A stretch of DNA of 64,000 bases, from assembly GCA_944323485.1 (NCBI GenBank), contig CALUSR010000004.1, positions 186,001 to 250,000 of the forward strand, given 5' to 3'. Positions 30,724 through 52,312 of the stretch are shown here, in pieces. Numbering within the stretch: the first letter of the stretch is position 1; the number at the start of each line of letters is the position of its first letter. The position numbers and the translations under genes are program-made. This stretch comes from Candidatus Gastranaerophilales bacterium. Lineage in GTDB: Bacteria > Cyanobacteriota > Vampirovibrionia > Gastranaerophilales > CAJFVJ01. The notes below the pieces were generated by a model. That model saw only the letters and a list, made by a program, of their open reading frames with translations. It was not told the origin of the DNA and made no database searches.

Positions 30724-33336
30724 ATGTTTAATTTTGAAAAATTCACAAAATCTGCACAAAATACGATTCTTCTCTCTCAGGAGATAATGCATCGTTATCA
30801 AAACAACCAGATGGACTCTGAGCATATTATGCTCGCCTTTCTTGAGTCTGATGAAAATGTTGTAAAAGATATTTTTGAAAAACTAAAAGTAAACGAAAAT
30901 CAATTGAAAAATGATATAGAAAGAATACTCTCTCAAAAACCAAAACTGGCAAACGCATATGACAGCGGGCAGATATTTATTTCTCCTGCGCTGAAACGTG
31001 TTTTTGACAATGCAGCGGTGCAAGCTCAAAACTTCGGAGATACATTCATCGGAAACGAACATATCCTCTTGGCTATTCTCGAGGATAAATCGTCTGAAAC
31101 GACAAAAATTCTCGACTCCCTTAATGTAACTACCCAATCAGTTTTAATCGCCTTAAAAGACATCAGAGGCAACGCAAAATTGGATTCAGAAGATGCTGAA
31201 GAAAAATATAAAGTTCTTGAAAAATACAGCATTGATTTAACAAAACTTGCCCGTGAAGGCAAACTTGACCCTGTGATAGGGAGAAATACAGAAGTCAGAA
31301 GGATTATACAGGTTCTAAACAGAAGAACCAAAAATAACCCTGTCTTGATAGGTGAACCAGGAGTCGGTAAAACCGCAATCATCGAAGGTCTTGCCCAGAG
31401 AATAGTAAAAGGCGACGTTCCTGAAACACTGAAGCATAAAAGGCTTATATCAGTAGATATAGGTGCATTAATTGCGGGTGCAAAATTTAGAGGAGAATTT
31501 GAAGAAAGATTGAAAGCTCTCCTCAAAGAAGTTGAATCAAGCAACGGCGAAATTATTATGTTTATTGATGAACTCCACACTGTAGTAGGAGCAGGCGGCT
31601 CATCAGACGGTTCTATGGACGCAGGAAACCTTCTCAAACCAATGCTTGCAAGAGGTGTCCTAAAATGCATCGGTGCTACAACCATAAACGAATATAGAAA
31701 ATATATCGAAAAAGACCCGGCTCTTGAAAGACGATTCCAGCCTATTATGGTAAACGAACCGTCAATAGAAGATACAATCAGTATCTTACGTGGTCTTAAG
31801 GATAAATACGAAGTACACCACGGAATCAGAATCAAAGACTCTGCAATCATCGAAGCAGTAAAGTTATCTGACAGATACATCACTGACAGATTCCTCCCTG
31901 ATAAAGCTATAGACCTCATCGATGAAGCGGCATCATCACTGAGAATAGACATAGACAGTATGCCTGCTGAAATTGATAAACTCGTAAGAGAAAAAACTCA
32001 GCTGGAAATAGAAAGAGAAGCTCTGAAAAAAGAAACAGACGACGATTCAAAGAAAAAAGTCGGAGAATTGGATAATGAAATTTCAGAACTAAACCAAAAA
32101 GTAGATAAACTGAGCGCTCAATGGAAAAAAGAAAAAGAAGCAATTACTCAGAGTGCATCTATAAAAGAGGAAATAGAAAAAGTAAAACAGGAAATCGATG
32201 TTGCAGAAAGAAATGCTGATCTTGAAAAAGCTGCAGAACTTAAATACGGCAAACTCATTGAACTGCAAAAACAGCTGCATAAATATGAAGAAGAACTATC
32301 GGCAAGAAATGATAAAAACACTATGCTGAAAGAAGAAGTCTCAGAAGAACAAATTGCCAAAATCGTAAGTAAATGGACAGGTATCCCGGTCAATAAACTT
32401 ATCGAAAGCGAAAAACAAAAACTTCTGAATATGGAAGAATATCTGCATAAACGTGTAATCGGTCAGGATGAAGCTGTTGATGCAATTTCTGATGCGACAA
32501 GAAGAGCCTTCTCTGGGCTCAAAGACCCGAAAAGACCTATCGGTTCATTCATTTTCCTCGGTCCTACAGGTGTAGGAAAAACAGAACTCGCAAAAAGCTT
32601 ATCAGAATTTCTCTTTAATTCTGAAGACGCAATGATAAGAATCGATATGTCTGAATATATGGAAAAACACGCAGTCGCAAGATTGATAGGTGCGCCTCCA
32701 GGATATGTCGGCTATGACGAAGGCGGTCAGCTTACTGAATACGTAAGAAGAAAACCATACAGCGTAATTCTCTTTGATGAAATAGAAAAAGCTCACCCGG
32801 ACGTGTTCAACATTATGCTGCAAATCCTCGATGACGGACGGCTTACAGATTCAAAAGGAAGAACAGTTGATTTCAAAAATACTGTCATAATTATGACCAG
32901 CAACATAGGTAGTTCTCTAATCCTAGAAAATACAATGAACTCTCTATTCTCAGCTTCTGACTTTGAAAAAACAAAAGAAGAAGTTATGAATATTATGAAA
33001 TCAACCTTCAAACCGGAATTTTTGAACCGTATCGATGATATTGTATTCTTCAAAGGGTTAACACTGCCTGATTTGTCAAAAATCGTTGATATACAGCTCA
33101 ACCACCTGAAAGAACGTCTTGAAGAAAAAGACATCGAACTCTATGTCAGCGACGAAGCAAAAGAATTCATCGCAACAAGAGGCTATGATCCTGCCTATGG
33201 AGCAAGACCTCTAAAGAGAACAATAATGCAATATATAGAAAATCCTATGGCAAAAAAAATTCTTGCTAATAATGCCATAAGTAAAATTGAAATCGATGTT
33301 CACGATGATGAGCTGGATATCAAAACAGTATCCTAA
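30724..33336 (+). CDS. clpB: ATP-dependent disaggregase ClpB
   Basis: An 870-residue Hsp100 disaggregase that works with DnaK to rescue aggregated proteins. Double Clp-N repeat (1-145), AAA-1 with Walker A GEPGVGKT (210-217) and Walker B IIMFIDELHT, a long coiled-coil middle domain (about 410-525) that marks ClpB and not ClpC/ClpA, AAA-2 with GPTGVGKT, and the D2-small domain. The ClpP-binding loop of ClpC/A is not seen. A strong GGAGGTG precedes the start. No CIRCE element was found upstream. Its stop overlaps the convergent gene by 4 bp. Confidence 0.95.
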   Translation: MFNFEKFTKSAQNTILLSQEIMHRYQNNQMDSEHIMLAFLESDENVVKDIFEKLKVNENQLKNDIERILSQKPKLANAYDSGQIFISPALKRVFDNAAVQAQNFGDTFIGNEHILLAILEDKSSETTKILDSLNVTTQSVLIALKDIRGNAKLDSEDAEEKYKVLEKYSIDLTKLAREGKLDPVIGRNTEVRRIIQVLNRRTKNNPVLIGEPGVGKTAIIEGLAQRIVKGDVPETLKHKRLISVDIGALIAGAKFRGEFEERLKALLKEVESSNGEIIMFIDELHTVVGAGGSSDGSMDAGNLLKPMLARGVLKCIGATTINEYRKYIEKDPALERRFQPIMVNEPSIEDTISILRGLKDKYEVHHGIRIKDSAIIEAVKLSDRYITDRFLPDKAIDLIDEAASSLRIDIDSMPAEIDKLVREKTQLEIEREALKKETDDDSKKKVGELDNEISELNQKVDKLSAQWKKEKEAITQSASIKEEIEKVKQEIDVAERNADLEKAAELKYGKLIELQKQLHKYEEELSARNDKNTMLKEEVSEEQIAKIVSKWTGIPVNKLIESEKQKLLNMEEYLHKRVIGQDEAVDAISDATRRAFSGLKDPKRPIGSFIFLGPTGVGKTELAKSLSEFLFNSEDAMIRIDMSEYMEKHAVARLIGAPPGYVGYDEGGQLTEYVRRKPYSVILFDEIEKAHPDVFNIMLQILDDGRLTDSKGRTVDFKNTVIIMTSNIGSSLILENTMNSLFSASDFEKTKEEVMNIMKSTFKPEFLNRIDDIVFFKGLTLPDLSKIVDIQLNHLKERLEEKDIELYVSDEAKEFIATRGYDPAYGARPLKRTIMQYIENPMAKKILANNAISKIEIDVHDDELDIKTVS

Positions 33337-47761: not shown

Positions 47762-48148
47762 TTAACGTCTATAATAATTATTGTCTATAATATAGTTCGC
47801 TATCGAAGTTCTAAATCTGTTAATACCTCCGAATATTTTGTTGCCTATATTCATAAGTAATTTGCCTGTTGCTTTGATACTTTTGCCTCGGGTTAAAACA
47901 CCAATAATGCCGTAAGCAACACCTGCTGCAAGTCCTATCTGTTTGTTTGTGGTCCACATAGGAGATGATGGATCCGGTGTTTCGTATTTATCAAGCGTCC
48001 GATTATCAAGAGGACGTGATGGAATATACATATCACCATAAACAGGCGTCATAAGATTTGCCCTGAATATACTGTCAGGCGTATATAACGACATAGGATT
48101 GACGTTTATTGCCTGAGCATACCTCGTATTTTTCACTCCGTTGCTCAT
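47762..48148 (-). CDS. Small hypothetical protein
   Basis: A 128-residue protein. Residues 1-65 are polar and Pro/Asn-rich (NPMSLYTPDSIF, YIPSRPLDNRTLDKY); about 68-85 (IGLAAGVAYGIIGVLTRG) is a weak membrane or amphipathic segment, followed by a basic tail ending NNYYRR. No signal peptide. AAGG precedes the ATG. It follows the M41 peptidase gene after a terminator, so it is probably a separate transcript. No family recognised. Confidence 0.55.
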   Translation of the reverse strand: MSNGVKNTRYAQAINVNPMSLYTPDSIFRANLMTPVYGDMYIPSRPLDNRTLDKYETPDPSSPMWTTNKQIGLAAGVAYGIIGVLTRGKSIKATGKLLMNIGNKIFGGINRFRTSIANYIIDNNYYRR

Positions 48149-48251: not shown

Positions 48252-51200
48252 TTATTCATCAACGGGAGGAAGACCGCCTTTTACCGGAGGATGTTCATTT
48301 TGGACGTAGTGTTTCTTTTCTTCTCTGATGGTATCTTTATCAATCACGATACCTTTTTTAGTTTTATCAATGACCATCAAAACATCTTGTTTTAGTTTTT
48401 CTATTTCTTTTTTCTTTGACTCAGGCTGTTTTTCTACCCAATCGTAGAGTTCTTTCTGGAATTCATCGGAAGTAACTATGCAATCGCCGGTTCCTACTCT
48501 ATCTTTGTATTTCTGTCCGAATTCTTCAAGAAATCCGTCATAAGTATTTACAATCATATCAGATATAGCATTTGCATTTTTCAACATAACATCAACATCA
48601 GATTCAATCTTATCTCTCATCTTATCAGAAATATCAAGATGTCCAGTTCTTGATGGATGAATTGAAATTCGTCCGGTTTTTGGACCCAATCCCATATATT
48701 GAACGGCCATTTTTGCAGTATTTGTTGCTTGCTGCATATCTCCAGTAATTCCCCAGCTTCCGTCCATATTGAAGAATCTCTTTTCTGCAGAGTGCCCTCC
48801 AAAATAGCAAATTAAATTGCTGAAGAGTTTTTCAAAACTATATTCATCGTTCTCAGAGTCTTTCGGATACGTAGCTCCGCCGTAGTCGCCTCTTGGGTCA
48901 AGCGTGATAAAGTTCACTTTATCAGGCACATGCCATGGTCTTTCCTGCTCTTTTGCAAGATCATACATAAACTGCAACGTCAGAGCATGACCGCCTTCAT
49001 GTTTTGTCACTAGTTCTTTCCTGTGAGCAGAATCCTTAACTGAAGAAACCCTTCCTGATGTTGTCTGCAAGAAAGCTTCCGTAAAATCAGATTTATCAAT
49101 AGCGTCATGGTCTCGTTCTTTGGCGATTATATCTGCTTTATCAAGCATATATAAAATATCAACAACAGTAAAACCGCTTGTTGTTTCGGCTGCTGATTTT
49201 ATTATAGAATTTTTTTCTTCCTCTGTATCACCTGCTATTTTGAAATTATTTTTCTCTGCATAATATTTTATAAGATCTTCTCTGTCTTTGACATCACGAG
49301 GAGAATATATTATTACCTGATCGAGAAATTTATGCGGTTTCATAATGTTTTCATCGAGAAGTTCAGGCATATCTGTAGAGCCGACGACAACAATATTCAG
49401 GTCTTCATTTTTTCTGATATTTTCCATTTCTTCCAAAAGCTGAGAGAAGGCTTTTTGTTCATAAATTGATGAAATACCATAAAGAGGATTTGACCCGAAG
49501 TTATCAAAATGTTCGATAAAAATCATTGCTGATTTATTCGGATTTGCCTCTGCCTGTGTTCTTGCACTGTTAATAATCTTTCTGATTTTTATTTCAGAGA
49601 GTCCTGCATTTTGTGACATAGCATCAATATCTTTCATTGCAAAATCACGGGCATTAATTGTTATCATAGGAATACCGGCTTCTCCTGCTATGGCTTCGGC
49701 AGTATGGCGTCTTCCACCGCCATAAGAAGAACCTGTATCAAGGAAGAAAGTCATTCCCTTTGTCCCGATTCGCTGATTTTTAATCTGATTTACTATACTT
49801 TCTGCCTCAGCTTTTGTCATAGGAGAACCAACAATATCATCAAGCGTTTTTCCGGTATTAAAAACAACTTTGAACGGTTCATCAGAGTCCGTTGTTTTTG
49901 AGAGATGTTTTGTTTCATCGATATATGTCGCAATATCTTCAGAAGTTATTTCATCTTTTTCAACGAAATATGACGCAACATTTTTCAGGAGCTTAAGTGT
50001 TTTCTCAGGATATATTCCGTCATCCGCACTTGATACCTCAACTGCAAAAGTGATTGCATCCTCAGAAACTTTTTTCTTCACTGCCTTATCAATAAACTCA
50101 GGACTTTCTATCAGCACTTTTTTGGTATCTTCTGCATTCATAATAGGAAGTGATAGTTCTCCATAGTCATCTACGGCATTTTTTATGAGAGCATTCTGAT
50201 TTGTTCCATAATAAAAATCTTTGTTTGAGAGAACCAAAAACTGAACATTTGACTCTTTATCTTTATTTTCAAGCAGTTTCAAATCTTCAAGAGTAAATAA
50301 TATCCGTCCTTCCATTCCTCTCAATCTCGATGAAGAAGCTCCTGCCGTCGCCCAATCGAGAACAAAAATATGTTTTTTATCTTTATCTTTTTTGGCATCC
50401 TCATATTTTTTTGTTATGAGTTCAAAAGTAGCTTTATCATTGAAGAACGTTATATCAACATTATCTTTATTCAAATTTTTGTATGTTTGCCCGGGTTTGT
50501 TTATGAGGTTTGCAAAACTGCGCAGGAGATATTTCGGAGCGTTTTCATTATCTTTATCAAACAGAACAAACATATTGCGTCCGAGATCAAAATTTTTCCA
50601 CAGGTTATCAGCTTTTTCGTCATAAAAATGAAGATGTATCTTCTCTTTTTGCGGAGCTTCATCAATCATCGCAGCCTCTTGCAGTCTGTTCACAAAAGAA
50701 AGCGTCTTTGAACGGGTAGATTTGCTTTCAGAAGACAGAAGAGAGGCAAGAAGAACAGAATCATCAATCAGTGAGATAGAAGATTGAGATGGAGTAGTTG
50801 CATCAAGTTTTTTGTTAAAGAAATAAATATCATTTATCAAAGAAGGCGACAGTGGCGGAGTTCCAAATCTTCGACCTCTTGGATTATTTTGAGCTTGTTG
50901 TTCTATAGATTGTTTGACATTTTTGATTTCATCTTTTATTACAGGTTGTAATTTGGCTCTTCCTTCTTTTTCTTTGAAGTACGCCGGAGCGATGTATTCT
51001 TCCAAAACAGGAACTGATCCGACATTTGAGAGAGTTTCCTCATATTTTGCACCGTTGTTCAACTCATCAATATATTTATCCAAATCAAGCAAAATCGCCA
51101 GATACATATGCTCTTGAGTAACAACAGGAGCATTTTTTGCAATACGAGTAGCAGATACAAGAATTTTCTCGGTTTTTGGAGCAAAATCTTTTTTCATTGA

Positions 51201-51404
51201 ACGAAATCGTCTGTTTTCTTCTACACCTTTGAAATTTATATCAAAATAGTTTGATGCTGATAGCGCATCAACTTTTTGTTCTGAATTTTGCAAATAATTA
51301 TAATTATTTGTTAAATCTGCGTGAGCAGATTTTTTTGAATCAAACTTTTTTTGAGATTTTTTTGCGGAAATCCCGTTTAAGTTTATTGCCTCAATAATCA
51401 TCAT
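48252..51404 (-). CDS. Soluble M41 peptidase with Clp-N-like domain and degenerate AAA modules
   Basis: A 1050-residue protein. Residues 1-55 are a polar lead-in ending FDINFKG (54-60). Residues about 65-110 resemble a Clp-N motif (APVVTQEHMYLAILLDLDKY). A first AAA-like region (about 260-500) has no P-loop. An FtsH-type AAA region (about 520-750) has lost the Walker A lysine (DTGSSYGGGRRHT at about 554-567 in place of GxPGTGKT) and reads FIEHFD at Walker B. The M41 protease keeps HEGGH (H802 onward) and the third-ligand segment TGDMQQAT. There are no membrane helices, unlike FtsH. The start is ATG 51404 after GAGTGG; a TTG at 51425 is less likely. Divergent from the HD gene, which has the same tag. 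Confidence 0.8.
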   Translation of the reverse strand: MMIIEAINLNGISAKKSQKKFDSKKSAHADLTNNYNYLQNSEQKVDALSASNYFDINFKGVEENRRFRSMKKDFAPKTEKILVSATRIAKNAPVVTQEHMYLAILLDLDKYIDELNNGAKYEETLSNVGSVPVLEEYIAPAYFKEKEGRAKLQPVIKDEIKNVKQSIEQQAQNNPRGRRFGTPPLSPSLINDIYFFNKKLDATTPSQSSISLIDDSVLLASLLSSESKSTRSKTLSFVNRLQEAAMIDEAPQKEKIHLHFYDEKADNLWKNFDLGRNMFVLFDKDNENAPKYLLRSFANLINKPGQTYKNLNKDNVDITFFNDKATFELITKKYEDAKKDKDKKHIFVLDWATAGASSSRLRGMEGRILFTLEDLKLLENKDKESNVQFLVLSNKDFYYGTNQNALIKNAVDDYGELSLPIMNAEDTKKVLIESPEFIDKAVKKKVSEDAITFAVEVSSADDGIYPEKTLKLLKNVASYFVEKDEITSEDIATYIDETKHLSKTTDSDEPFKVVFNTGKTLDDIVGSPMTKAEAESIVNQIKNQRIGTKGMTFFLDTGSSYGGGRRHTAEAIAGEAGIPMITINARDFAMKDIDAMSQNAGLSEIKIRKIINSARTQAEANPNKSAMIFIEHFDNFGSNPLYGISSIYEQKAFSQLLEEMENIRKNEDLNIVVVGSTDMPELLDENIMKPHKFLDQVIIYSPRDVKDREDLIKYYAEKNNFKIAGDTEEEKNSIIKSAAETTSGFTVVDILYMLDKADIIAKERDHDAIDKSDFTEAFLQTTSGRVSSVKDSAHRKELVTKHEGGHALTLQFMYDLAKEQERPWHVPDKVNFITLDPRGDYGGATYPKDSENDEYSFEKLFSNLICYFGGHSAEKRFFNMDGSWGITGDMQQATNTAKMAVQYMGLGPKTGRISIHPSRTGHLDISDKMRDKIESDVDVMLKNANAISDMIVNTYDGFLEEFGQKYKDRVGTGDCIVTSDEFQKELYDWVEKQPESKKKEIEKLKQDVLMVIDKTKKGIVIDKDTIREEKKHYVQNEHPPVKGGLPPVDE

Positions 51405-51583
51405 TAACCACTCTTTTTTGTCCAATCAGATGGTTTAAGTCCATGAAGATTATTTTTTGATAGAGGTGGCAAAAATATTTACAACTCTTAAATAATAAAC
51501 ATAAAAAGAAATATCAATTTATATTTATGTTCTTTTTTTATATAATCATCTTAGAGATTCATGAAAATCAGGTATCACTGAAT

Positions 51584-52312
51584 ATGGCAGTAATAAACAA
51601 AATTAATATGGCAAATAATTTTCTCTCATTTAGAGGGATAACAACTACTCAAGAAAGAAAGAGTTATATCTCTCCTACTATCAGCTTGCTAAAATCACCT
51701 GAGAGAGATTTGTTCATCCCCTCAAAACGTTCTCTTTTTTCTGACCCTGAAATAAGAGACGCTGTAATTTTTGCAATACAAAAACATGACGGAAAATATA
51801 GAAAACACCCGACAAAAAAAATACCTTATGTCACACACTGCATAAATGTAGGAGAAAAACTTCAAAAGGCAGGATTCGGAAAAGATACGGTTATTGCAGG
51901 CATATTGCATGATACCGTTGAAGATACGGATACAACTTACAAAGAGCTTGAAGACAAATTTGGTCAAAGAGTGTCCCGTCTTGTTCAAGAAGTTTCCCAT
52001 TCAAAAAAGAATGTAAGCTGGGAAGAAAAGCAGATTTCTTATCTGAAGCACATACAACATGCCTCAATCGATGCGCAAGCTATTTCGGCTTTTGATAAAA
52101 TTGATAATATGAACTCATCAATAGAATGCCTAGAAGAAGGATTAAACATTTTTGCAAATATGAAAGCCACCCCTAAAAAGCAGCTGAAAAAATGGAATAA
52201 TCTGAGAAAAGTTTATGACCAAACAAATATTCCCGATGAAATAAAACAAGAATACAGAGATACTTTTGAAAAATTGTGTGTGTTAACTGCGCAAAATCAT
52301 TTTCTTTACTAA
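51584..52312 (+). CDS. SpoT/MESH1-type HD hydrolase with N-terminal LSFRG tag
   Basis: A 242-residue single HD-domain protein. The core matches the (p)ppGpp hydrolase part of RelA/SpoT: FAIQKHDGKYRK, YVTHCINVGEKL, GILHDTVEDTD (metal HD plus the ED pair) and DKIDNMNSS. No synthetase, TGS or ACT domain follows, so it would be a stand-alone alarmone hydrolase; other nucleotide hydrolysis is possible. It begins MAVINKINMANNFLSFRG, the tag seen in other proteins here. The frame opens at 51527, but ATG 51584 follows AGGT and starts the tag. Confidence 0.8.
   Translation: MAVINKINMANNFLSFRGITTTQERKSYISPTISLLKSPERDLFIPSKRSLFSDPEIRDAVIFAIQKHDGKYRKHPTKKIPYVTHCINVGEKLQKAGFGKDTVIAGILHDTVEDTDTTYKELEDKFGQRVSRLVQEVSHSKKNVSWEEKQISYLKHIQHASIDAQAISAFDKIDNMNSSIECLEEGLNIFANMKATPKKQLKKWNNLRKVYDQTNIPDEIKQEYRDTFEKLCVLTAQNHFLY

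Follow-up and report, generated by a model that had tools for sequence, protein, structure and literature searches.

The gene at 48252..51404 on the minus strand of the window (the whole 64,000-nucleotide stretch of DNA analysed here) encodes a soluble M41 protease with a pseudo-motor. At a probability of about 0.6, judged from its sequence and those of its relatives, we further propose that this protein is descended from FtsH and works in the cytosol as a zinc protease that needs no ATP, with its dead AAA tiers serving as scaffold, substrate receptor and gate. Counted from the ATG at 51404 the protein has 1050 residues; the frame stays open to a TTG at 51425, and the full open reading frame, 48252-51425 (-), specifies 1057 aa counted from that TTG. 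Residue numbers throughout count from the TTG, which makes the ATG residue 8. The ATG, also the start adopted in an earlier sequence-only reading of this DNA, is likely the true one, since an AAGAG resembling a ribosome site lies just 5' of it and the aligned homologues start there as well.

The peptidase and the pseudo-motor

The C-terminal part of the protein is an M41 peptidase domain (residues 795-1030, 48336..49043 (-)), recognised by Pfam and by invariant alignment columns, and carrying a C-terminal extension that is conserved among family members. Pfam Peptidase_M41 (PF01434) matches residues 800-968 at 59.4 bits, against a gathering cut-off of 29.9 (5.5e-16), and is found in 49 of the 49 members and relatives scanned. 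The zinc site HEGGH (residues 809-813, 48987..49001 (-)) keeps its H, E and H in 61/61 distinct family sequences. Asp896 of GITGDMQ (48738..48740 (-)), which aligns with the third-ligand Asp of FtsH, is invariant in the same 61, and column counts find HExxH and third ligand together in every one. The sequence-only reading had described both elements as intact in this protein, and the description extends to the whole family.

Ahead of the peptidase lies an FtsH-type AAA domain (residues 525-790, 49056..49853 (-)) whose motor motifs are lost. It is identified by Pfam AAA (residues 571-701, 51.7 bits, 1.6e-13, above the family's cut-off), by solved FtsH structures, which match at 1.4e-38, and by a table of motifs. 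Functional columns were read in an alignment of 103 proteins and then counted over the 61 distinct members, and profile alignment to the solved FtsH chains yields the same motif correspondences. In the pseudo-Walker A, GSSYGGGRRHT (49701..49733 (-)), alignment to the FtsH of the same genome and to solved FtsH structures places Arg572 (GGGRR) at the position of the Walker A Lys; this Arg stands in 61/61 sequences, inside an invariant G-x-G-R (G569, G571 and R572) of a retained glycine loop. In the pseudo-Walker B, FIEHFD (49503..49520 (-)), the DE position is E638-H639, and the catalytic Glu is absent from all 61 members, its place being taken by Asn (54/61), Lys (5/61) or His (2/61). Both conserved SRH arginines are Lys in the window protein and the sensor-1 Asn is Asp; across the dead clade the sensor-1 and arginine-finger positions vary, and the canonical set is absent. 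The earlier claims of a missing Walker A lysine and an altered Walker B were correct, the first now refined to an invariant arginine, and the homologue alignment proposed with them finds the Walker A loss conserved in every distinct sequence. As read from these columns, every member has lost the motor and retained the peptidase, and these are conserved states, not random scatter.

Selection on the AAA part points the same way. In eight pairs, dN/dS is 0.05-0.14 over the full length and 0.013-0.077 over the AAA part, which is under constraint as strong as that on the peptidase. Because the dead AAA is so constrained, though unable to hydrolyse ATP by known rules, it appears to be used structurally. 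At the same time, the conserved glycine loop and invariant Arg exceed the needs of a pure scaffold, and one might suppose that the invariant GxGR(R/K) is a pseudo-P-loop that binds a nucleotide or phosphate ligand without hydrolysis, opening or closing the protease. The fixed G-x-G-R, the low dN/dS of the AAA part and the precedent of MtaLonC, which lacks ATPase yet binds six nucleotides per hexamer (PMC3391209), all favour such a ligand switch. Nonetheless, we consider it unlikely: the Lys, the catalytic Glu, the sensor-1 Asn and both SRH arginines are all altered together, and the near-fixed Asn at the position of the Walker B Glu is explained equally well by a structural lock.

Front half, solubility and genome setting

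The front half of the protein is Clp-like. Residues 72-255 (50661..51212 (-)) form an all-helical region that resembles the N-domain of ClpC by profile and by model: a profile built from 47 sequences over residues 72-262 finds a ClpC N-domain as its best match in the PDB (2.4e-8), and its top matches are almost all N-domains of ClpC, Hsp104 or ClpB. Pfam Clp_N gives no match to the window protein at E <= 1 and weak matches in 3/49 relatives. Thus, the Clp-N-like front of the sequence-only reading stands by profile and fold, while Pfam Clp_N alone misses it, and the HMM searches proposed at that time recover M41 and not Clp_N. Residues 263-512 (49890..50639 (-)) form a ClpC-D1-like AAA block without Walker A or B, its lid recognisable, as supported by profile, AAA_lid_9 and Foldseek. 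The profile of this block (52 sequences) matches the ClpC D1 core and lid in the PDB at 1.8e-7, AAA_lid_9 is found in the relative L018 (28.4 bits against a cut-off of 22.8), and a search of the block's alignment for a P-loop found none, the P-loop portion being unrecognisable. The second AAA-like block lacking a P-loop, as noticed in the sequence-only reading, is real and matches ClpC D1 with its lid.

Structure prediction of the whole chain, which had been suggested as a check, agrees with a Clp-like front joined to an FtsH fold. The AlphaFold2 monomer (49-sequence alignment) has a mean pLDDT of 83.7 over the whole chain, and the front-half model (residues 68-510) a pLDDT of 91.9 and a pTM of 0.88. 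Foldseek retrieves FtsH, AFG3L2 and YME1 with the whole model, target TM-scores for the FtsH half being 0.73-0.86 for many chains, and ClpC, Hsp104 and ClpB with the front half, at a modest TM of ~0.3-0.5 of the query that denotes a fold-level match.

Hydropathy finds no transmembrane helix in the window protein, as had been claimed: its maximum 19-residue Kyte-Doolittle value is 1.06, versus 2.29-3.03 in 24 canonical FtsH proteins. Values above 1.6 on the same measure occur in two of the 61 members, likely through an over-long choice of start codon, and the soluble state is common to the intact-motor relatives too. The chain opens with a disordered leader (residues 8-71, 51213..51404 (-); pLDDT < 50 for model residues 1-60) that ends in F-x-G, its Phe65 being present in 58/61 family members. 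Polar leaders ending in (S/N)F(K/R/T/Q)G occur in several proteins of the host genome, mostly without Pfam domains; the carriers are those encoded at 51527-52312 (+) and 48252-51404 (-) in the window and those of L188, L199, L206, L214, L222 and L226. The motif, which was chosen post hoc, is 5-fold enriched in the first 75 residues across 0.85 Mb of the own genome. A role as a sorting or tagging motif is possible; as a general sorting tag the leader was rejected, the enrichment being non-significant in independent neighbours.

A search of 35 loci found no neighbour conserved across the family, and operon clues were rejected. Shared context is confined to sub-clades, for example an outer-membrane-efflux/HlyD/ABC set downstream in L157, L158, L161 and L178. 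In the window, the protease gene is divergent from a gene with an HD_4 domain (51527-52312 (+)), and a 128-aa orphan with no Pfam or NCBIfam match (47762-48148 (-)) lies directly downstream on the same strand; both are also adjacent in a sister genome. The gene looks to stand alone, which speaks for the ATP-independent reading. The host genome, for which whole-genome counts were taken over stretches of it, also has ordinary Clp genes, which encode two other Clp_N proteins (of 833 aa and 870 aa) and two complete ClpP, and a Clp_N match at ~30775-31170 (+) in the same window falls within an 870-aa open frame, likely ClpB.

Counting against the ATP-independent reading is the fact that canonical FtsH requires ATP for proteolysis, and the protein could instead be a motor-dead protease subunit of a mixed ring, powered by a partner with an active AAA, either canonical FtsH or a soluble FtsH-like protein. 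Potential partners are at hand: FtsH-type matches occur in all but one of the 60 genomes of the relatives panel, canonical FtsH of ~600-640 aa occurs in dead-type genomes, and an intact soluble FtsH-like protein of ~750 aa is present as well in some genomes of genus g28; moreover, FtsH paralogues form hetero-hexamers (PMC9020784). However, the only other M41 protein in the window's genome is a membrane FtsH of the normal kind (608 aa), whereas the dead type is soluble and bears a 500-residue front, and the 750 aa partner is missing from most dead-type genomes. The loss of arginine fingers would also disable the ATP sites of neighbouring subunits, and the gene shares no operon with any motor gene, so that we regard a powered mixed ring as quite improbable.

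Distribution and descent

The sample comprised 383 genomes of Gastranaerophilales (Vampirovibrionia). Matches occur in 125 of them, 8 with other types only, which leaves ~117 with the dead type or fragments of it, and the dead-motor family is spread over about twenty genera. Being patchy, and present in about a third of the order's genomes, the gene does not encode a core housekeeping enzyme. No family member was found in the class sample outside the order at 1e-40, and the phylum sample outside the order, searched at 1e-38, gave only one canonical-like FtsH and no family member. A phage or mobile origin was considered and rejected: phage records matched the ordinary FtsH part only, and none of the viral contigs searched encoded a relative. 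Among the phage collection hits H2-H10, several short records labelled as Listeria, Enterococcus, Staphylococcus or Salmonella phage match FtsH and resemble host contamination, and an ftsH is annotated in Microcystis phage MaAM05.

In the tree, the dead-motor type is one clade (100 SH-aLRT), canonical FtsH is one clade, and all soluble forms are joined on one 100-supported branch. Intact motors (GTGKT / FIDE) occur in the soluble relatives L016-L019 and L167 and in the ~750 aa group, all outside the dead clade. Homologues with intact Walker motifs, which the sequence-only reading had named as evidence against itself if they came from the same clade, are thus absent from the 61-member clade and present among soluble relatives beyond it. 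Since the dead-motor proteins form one clade beside soluble relatives, some of which have intact motors, their sequences indicate a single ancestral loss of the motor, and on this tree the dead motor is derived, having arisen within a broader set of soluble FtsH-like proteins. Adjoining the dead clade are three soluble proteins (L020, L033 and L034) that keep GSGK(T/S), have YI(D/N)DFD at Walker B and lack Arg fingers. These half-degraded proteins are possible evolutionary intermediates, and their position beside the dead clade suggests that the Walker B Glu and the Arg fingers were lost before the Walker A Lys, with a warning of long branches at this join of the tree. The ~750 aa proteins (L168-L177; e.g. 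L170:4963-7200, 746 aa) make up another soluble group descended from FtsH. Their motor is intact, their N-terminal region differs and has no recognised Pfam domain, and in genus g28 they occur in genomes that also carry the dead type.

One copy of the family (L178, G311:C2) is split into frames of 790 and 211 aa, by an assembly frameshift or as a recent pseudogene. A local pseudogene or sequencing error in the window itself is ruled out by 61 distinct dead-state sequences that form one clade under purifying selection. That the family at large represents an FtsH paralogue in decay or without function, as the loss of all motor motifs and the split copy might suggest, is very hard to credit when 61 distinct sequences are intact, purifying selection is strong and the zinc site is invariant.

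Proposed working and significance

If the protein is indeed an ATP-independent protease, its general history and mode of action can be sketched. A duplicated FtsH would have lost its membrane anchor and gained a ClpC-D1-like block; the dead lineage would also bear an N-domain of the Clp type, and inactivation of its AAA motor would have happened once, in the ancestor of the clade. The two dead AAA tiers probably still form an FtsH-like hexamer that holds six M41 sites in a closed chamber. At its entrance the Clp-N-like domains would catch substrates that are tagged or unfolded, and the invariant GxGR loop would belong to a pseudo-AAA pore that acts as a fixed gate. Such a machine would have no unfolding power, and entry and cutting would be limited to unfolded chains or peptides. 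To the more specific picture, a new class of motor-less, ATP-independent protease derived from FtsH, with an M41 chamber gated by Clp-N, two stacked pseudo-AAA rings as receptor and gate, and an invariant Arg that locks the ring or reads a ligand, we would give even odds.

With FtsH (MEROPS M41, TIGR01241) the window protein shares the order of AAA then M41, the HExxH and third-ligand Asp, and the fold, but it differs in having no membrane helices, a dead motor and a Clp-like front. Where FtsH has its motor set (Walker A Lys, Walker B Glu and the SRH arginines), the window protein has R, H, K and K, and it scores 141.3 bits against the NCBIfam FtsH equivalog TIGR01241, below the cut-off of 600. 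Its N-domain and D1 with lid resemble the front half of ClpC, ClpB and Hsp104 by profile and fold, but it has no D1 P-loop and no D2, and it is fused to an FtsH-type AAA-peptidase with no ClpP partnership. Chloroplast FtsHi and Ycf2 are, like it, degenerate FtsH-derived proteins fixed by selection. Their loss is the reverse, however, in a membrane complex, FtsHi having kept the motor and lost the protease (PMC9020784), as the sequence-only reading had rightly said, whereas the window protein is soluble and keeps HExxH. In its probable working the analogy is with MtaLonC and the Lon-like ATP-independent proteases, which also combine an AAA-protease chain, degenerate Walker motifs and a retained protease; MtaLonC, without ATPase, degrades only unfolded substrates and does so without ATP (PMC3391209). 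It is a serine-type Lon protease, however, with an unrelated peptidase and no Clp-like front. By its domain the window protein belongs to the M41 peptidase family. It falls outside the definition of FtsH, and it probably works in the manner of LonC.

A literature search, mostly of open papers, found nothing on soluble, motor-dead M41 proteins of this kind. FtsH counts as a membrane protease that depends on ATP; if our reading is true, the clade would show an energy-dependent protease turning energy-independent. The soluble relatives with intact and half-degraded motors provide a natural series for comparison. In this family a Clp/Hsp100 front and an M41 peptidase also share one chain, and the role of a pseudo-AAA ring could be tested on a model built around the invariant GxGR loop.
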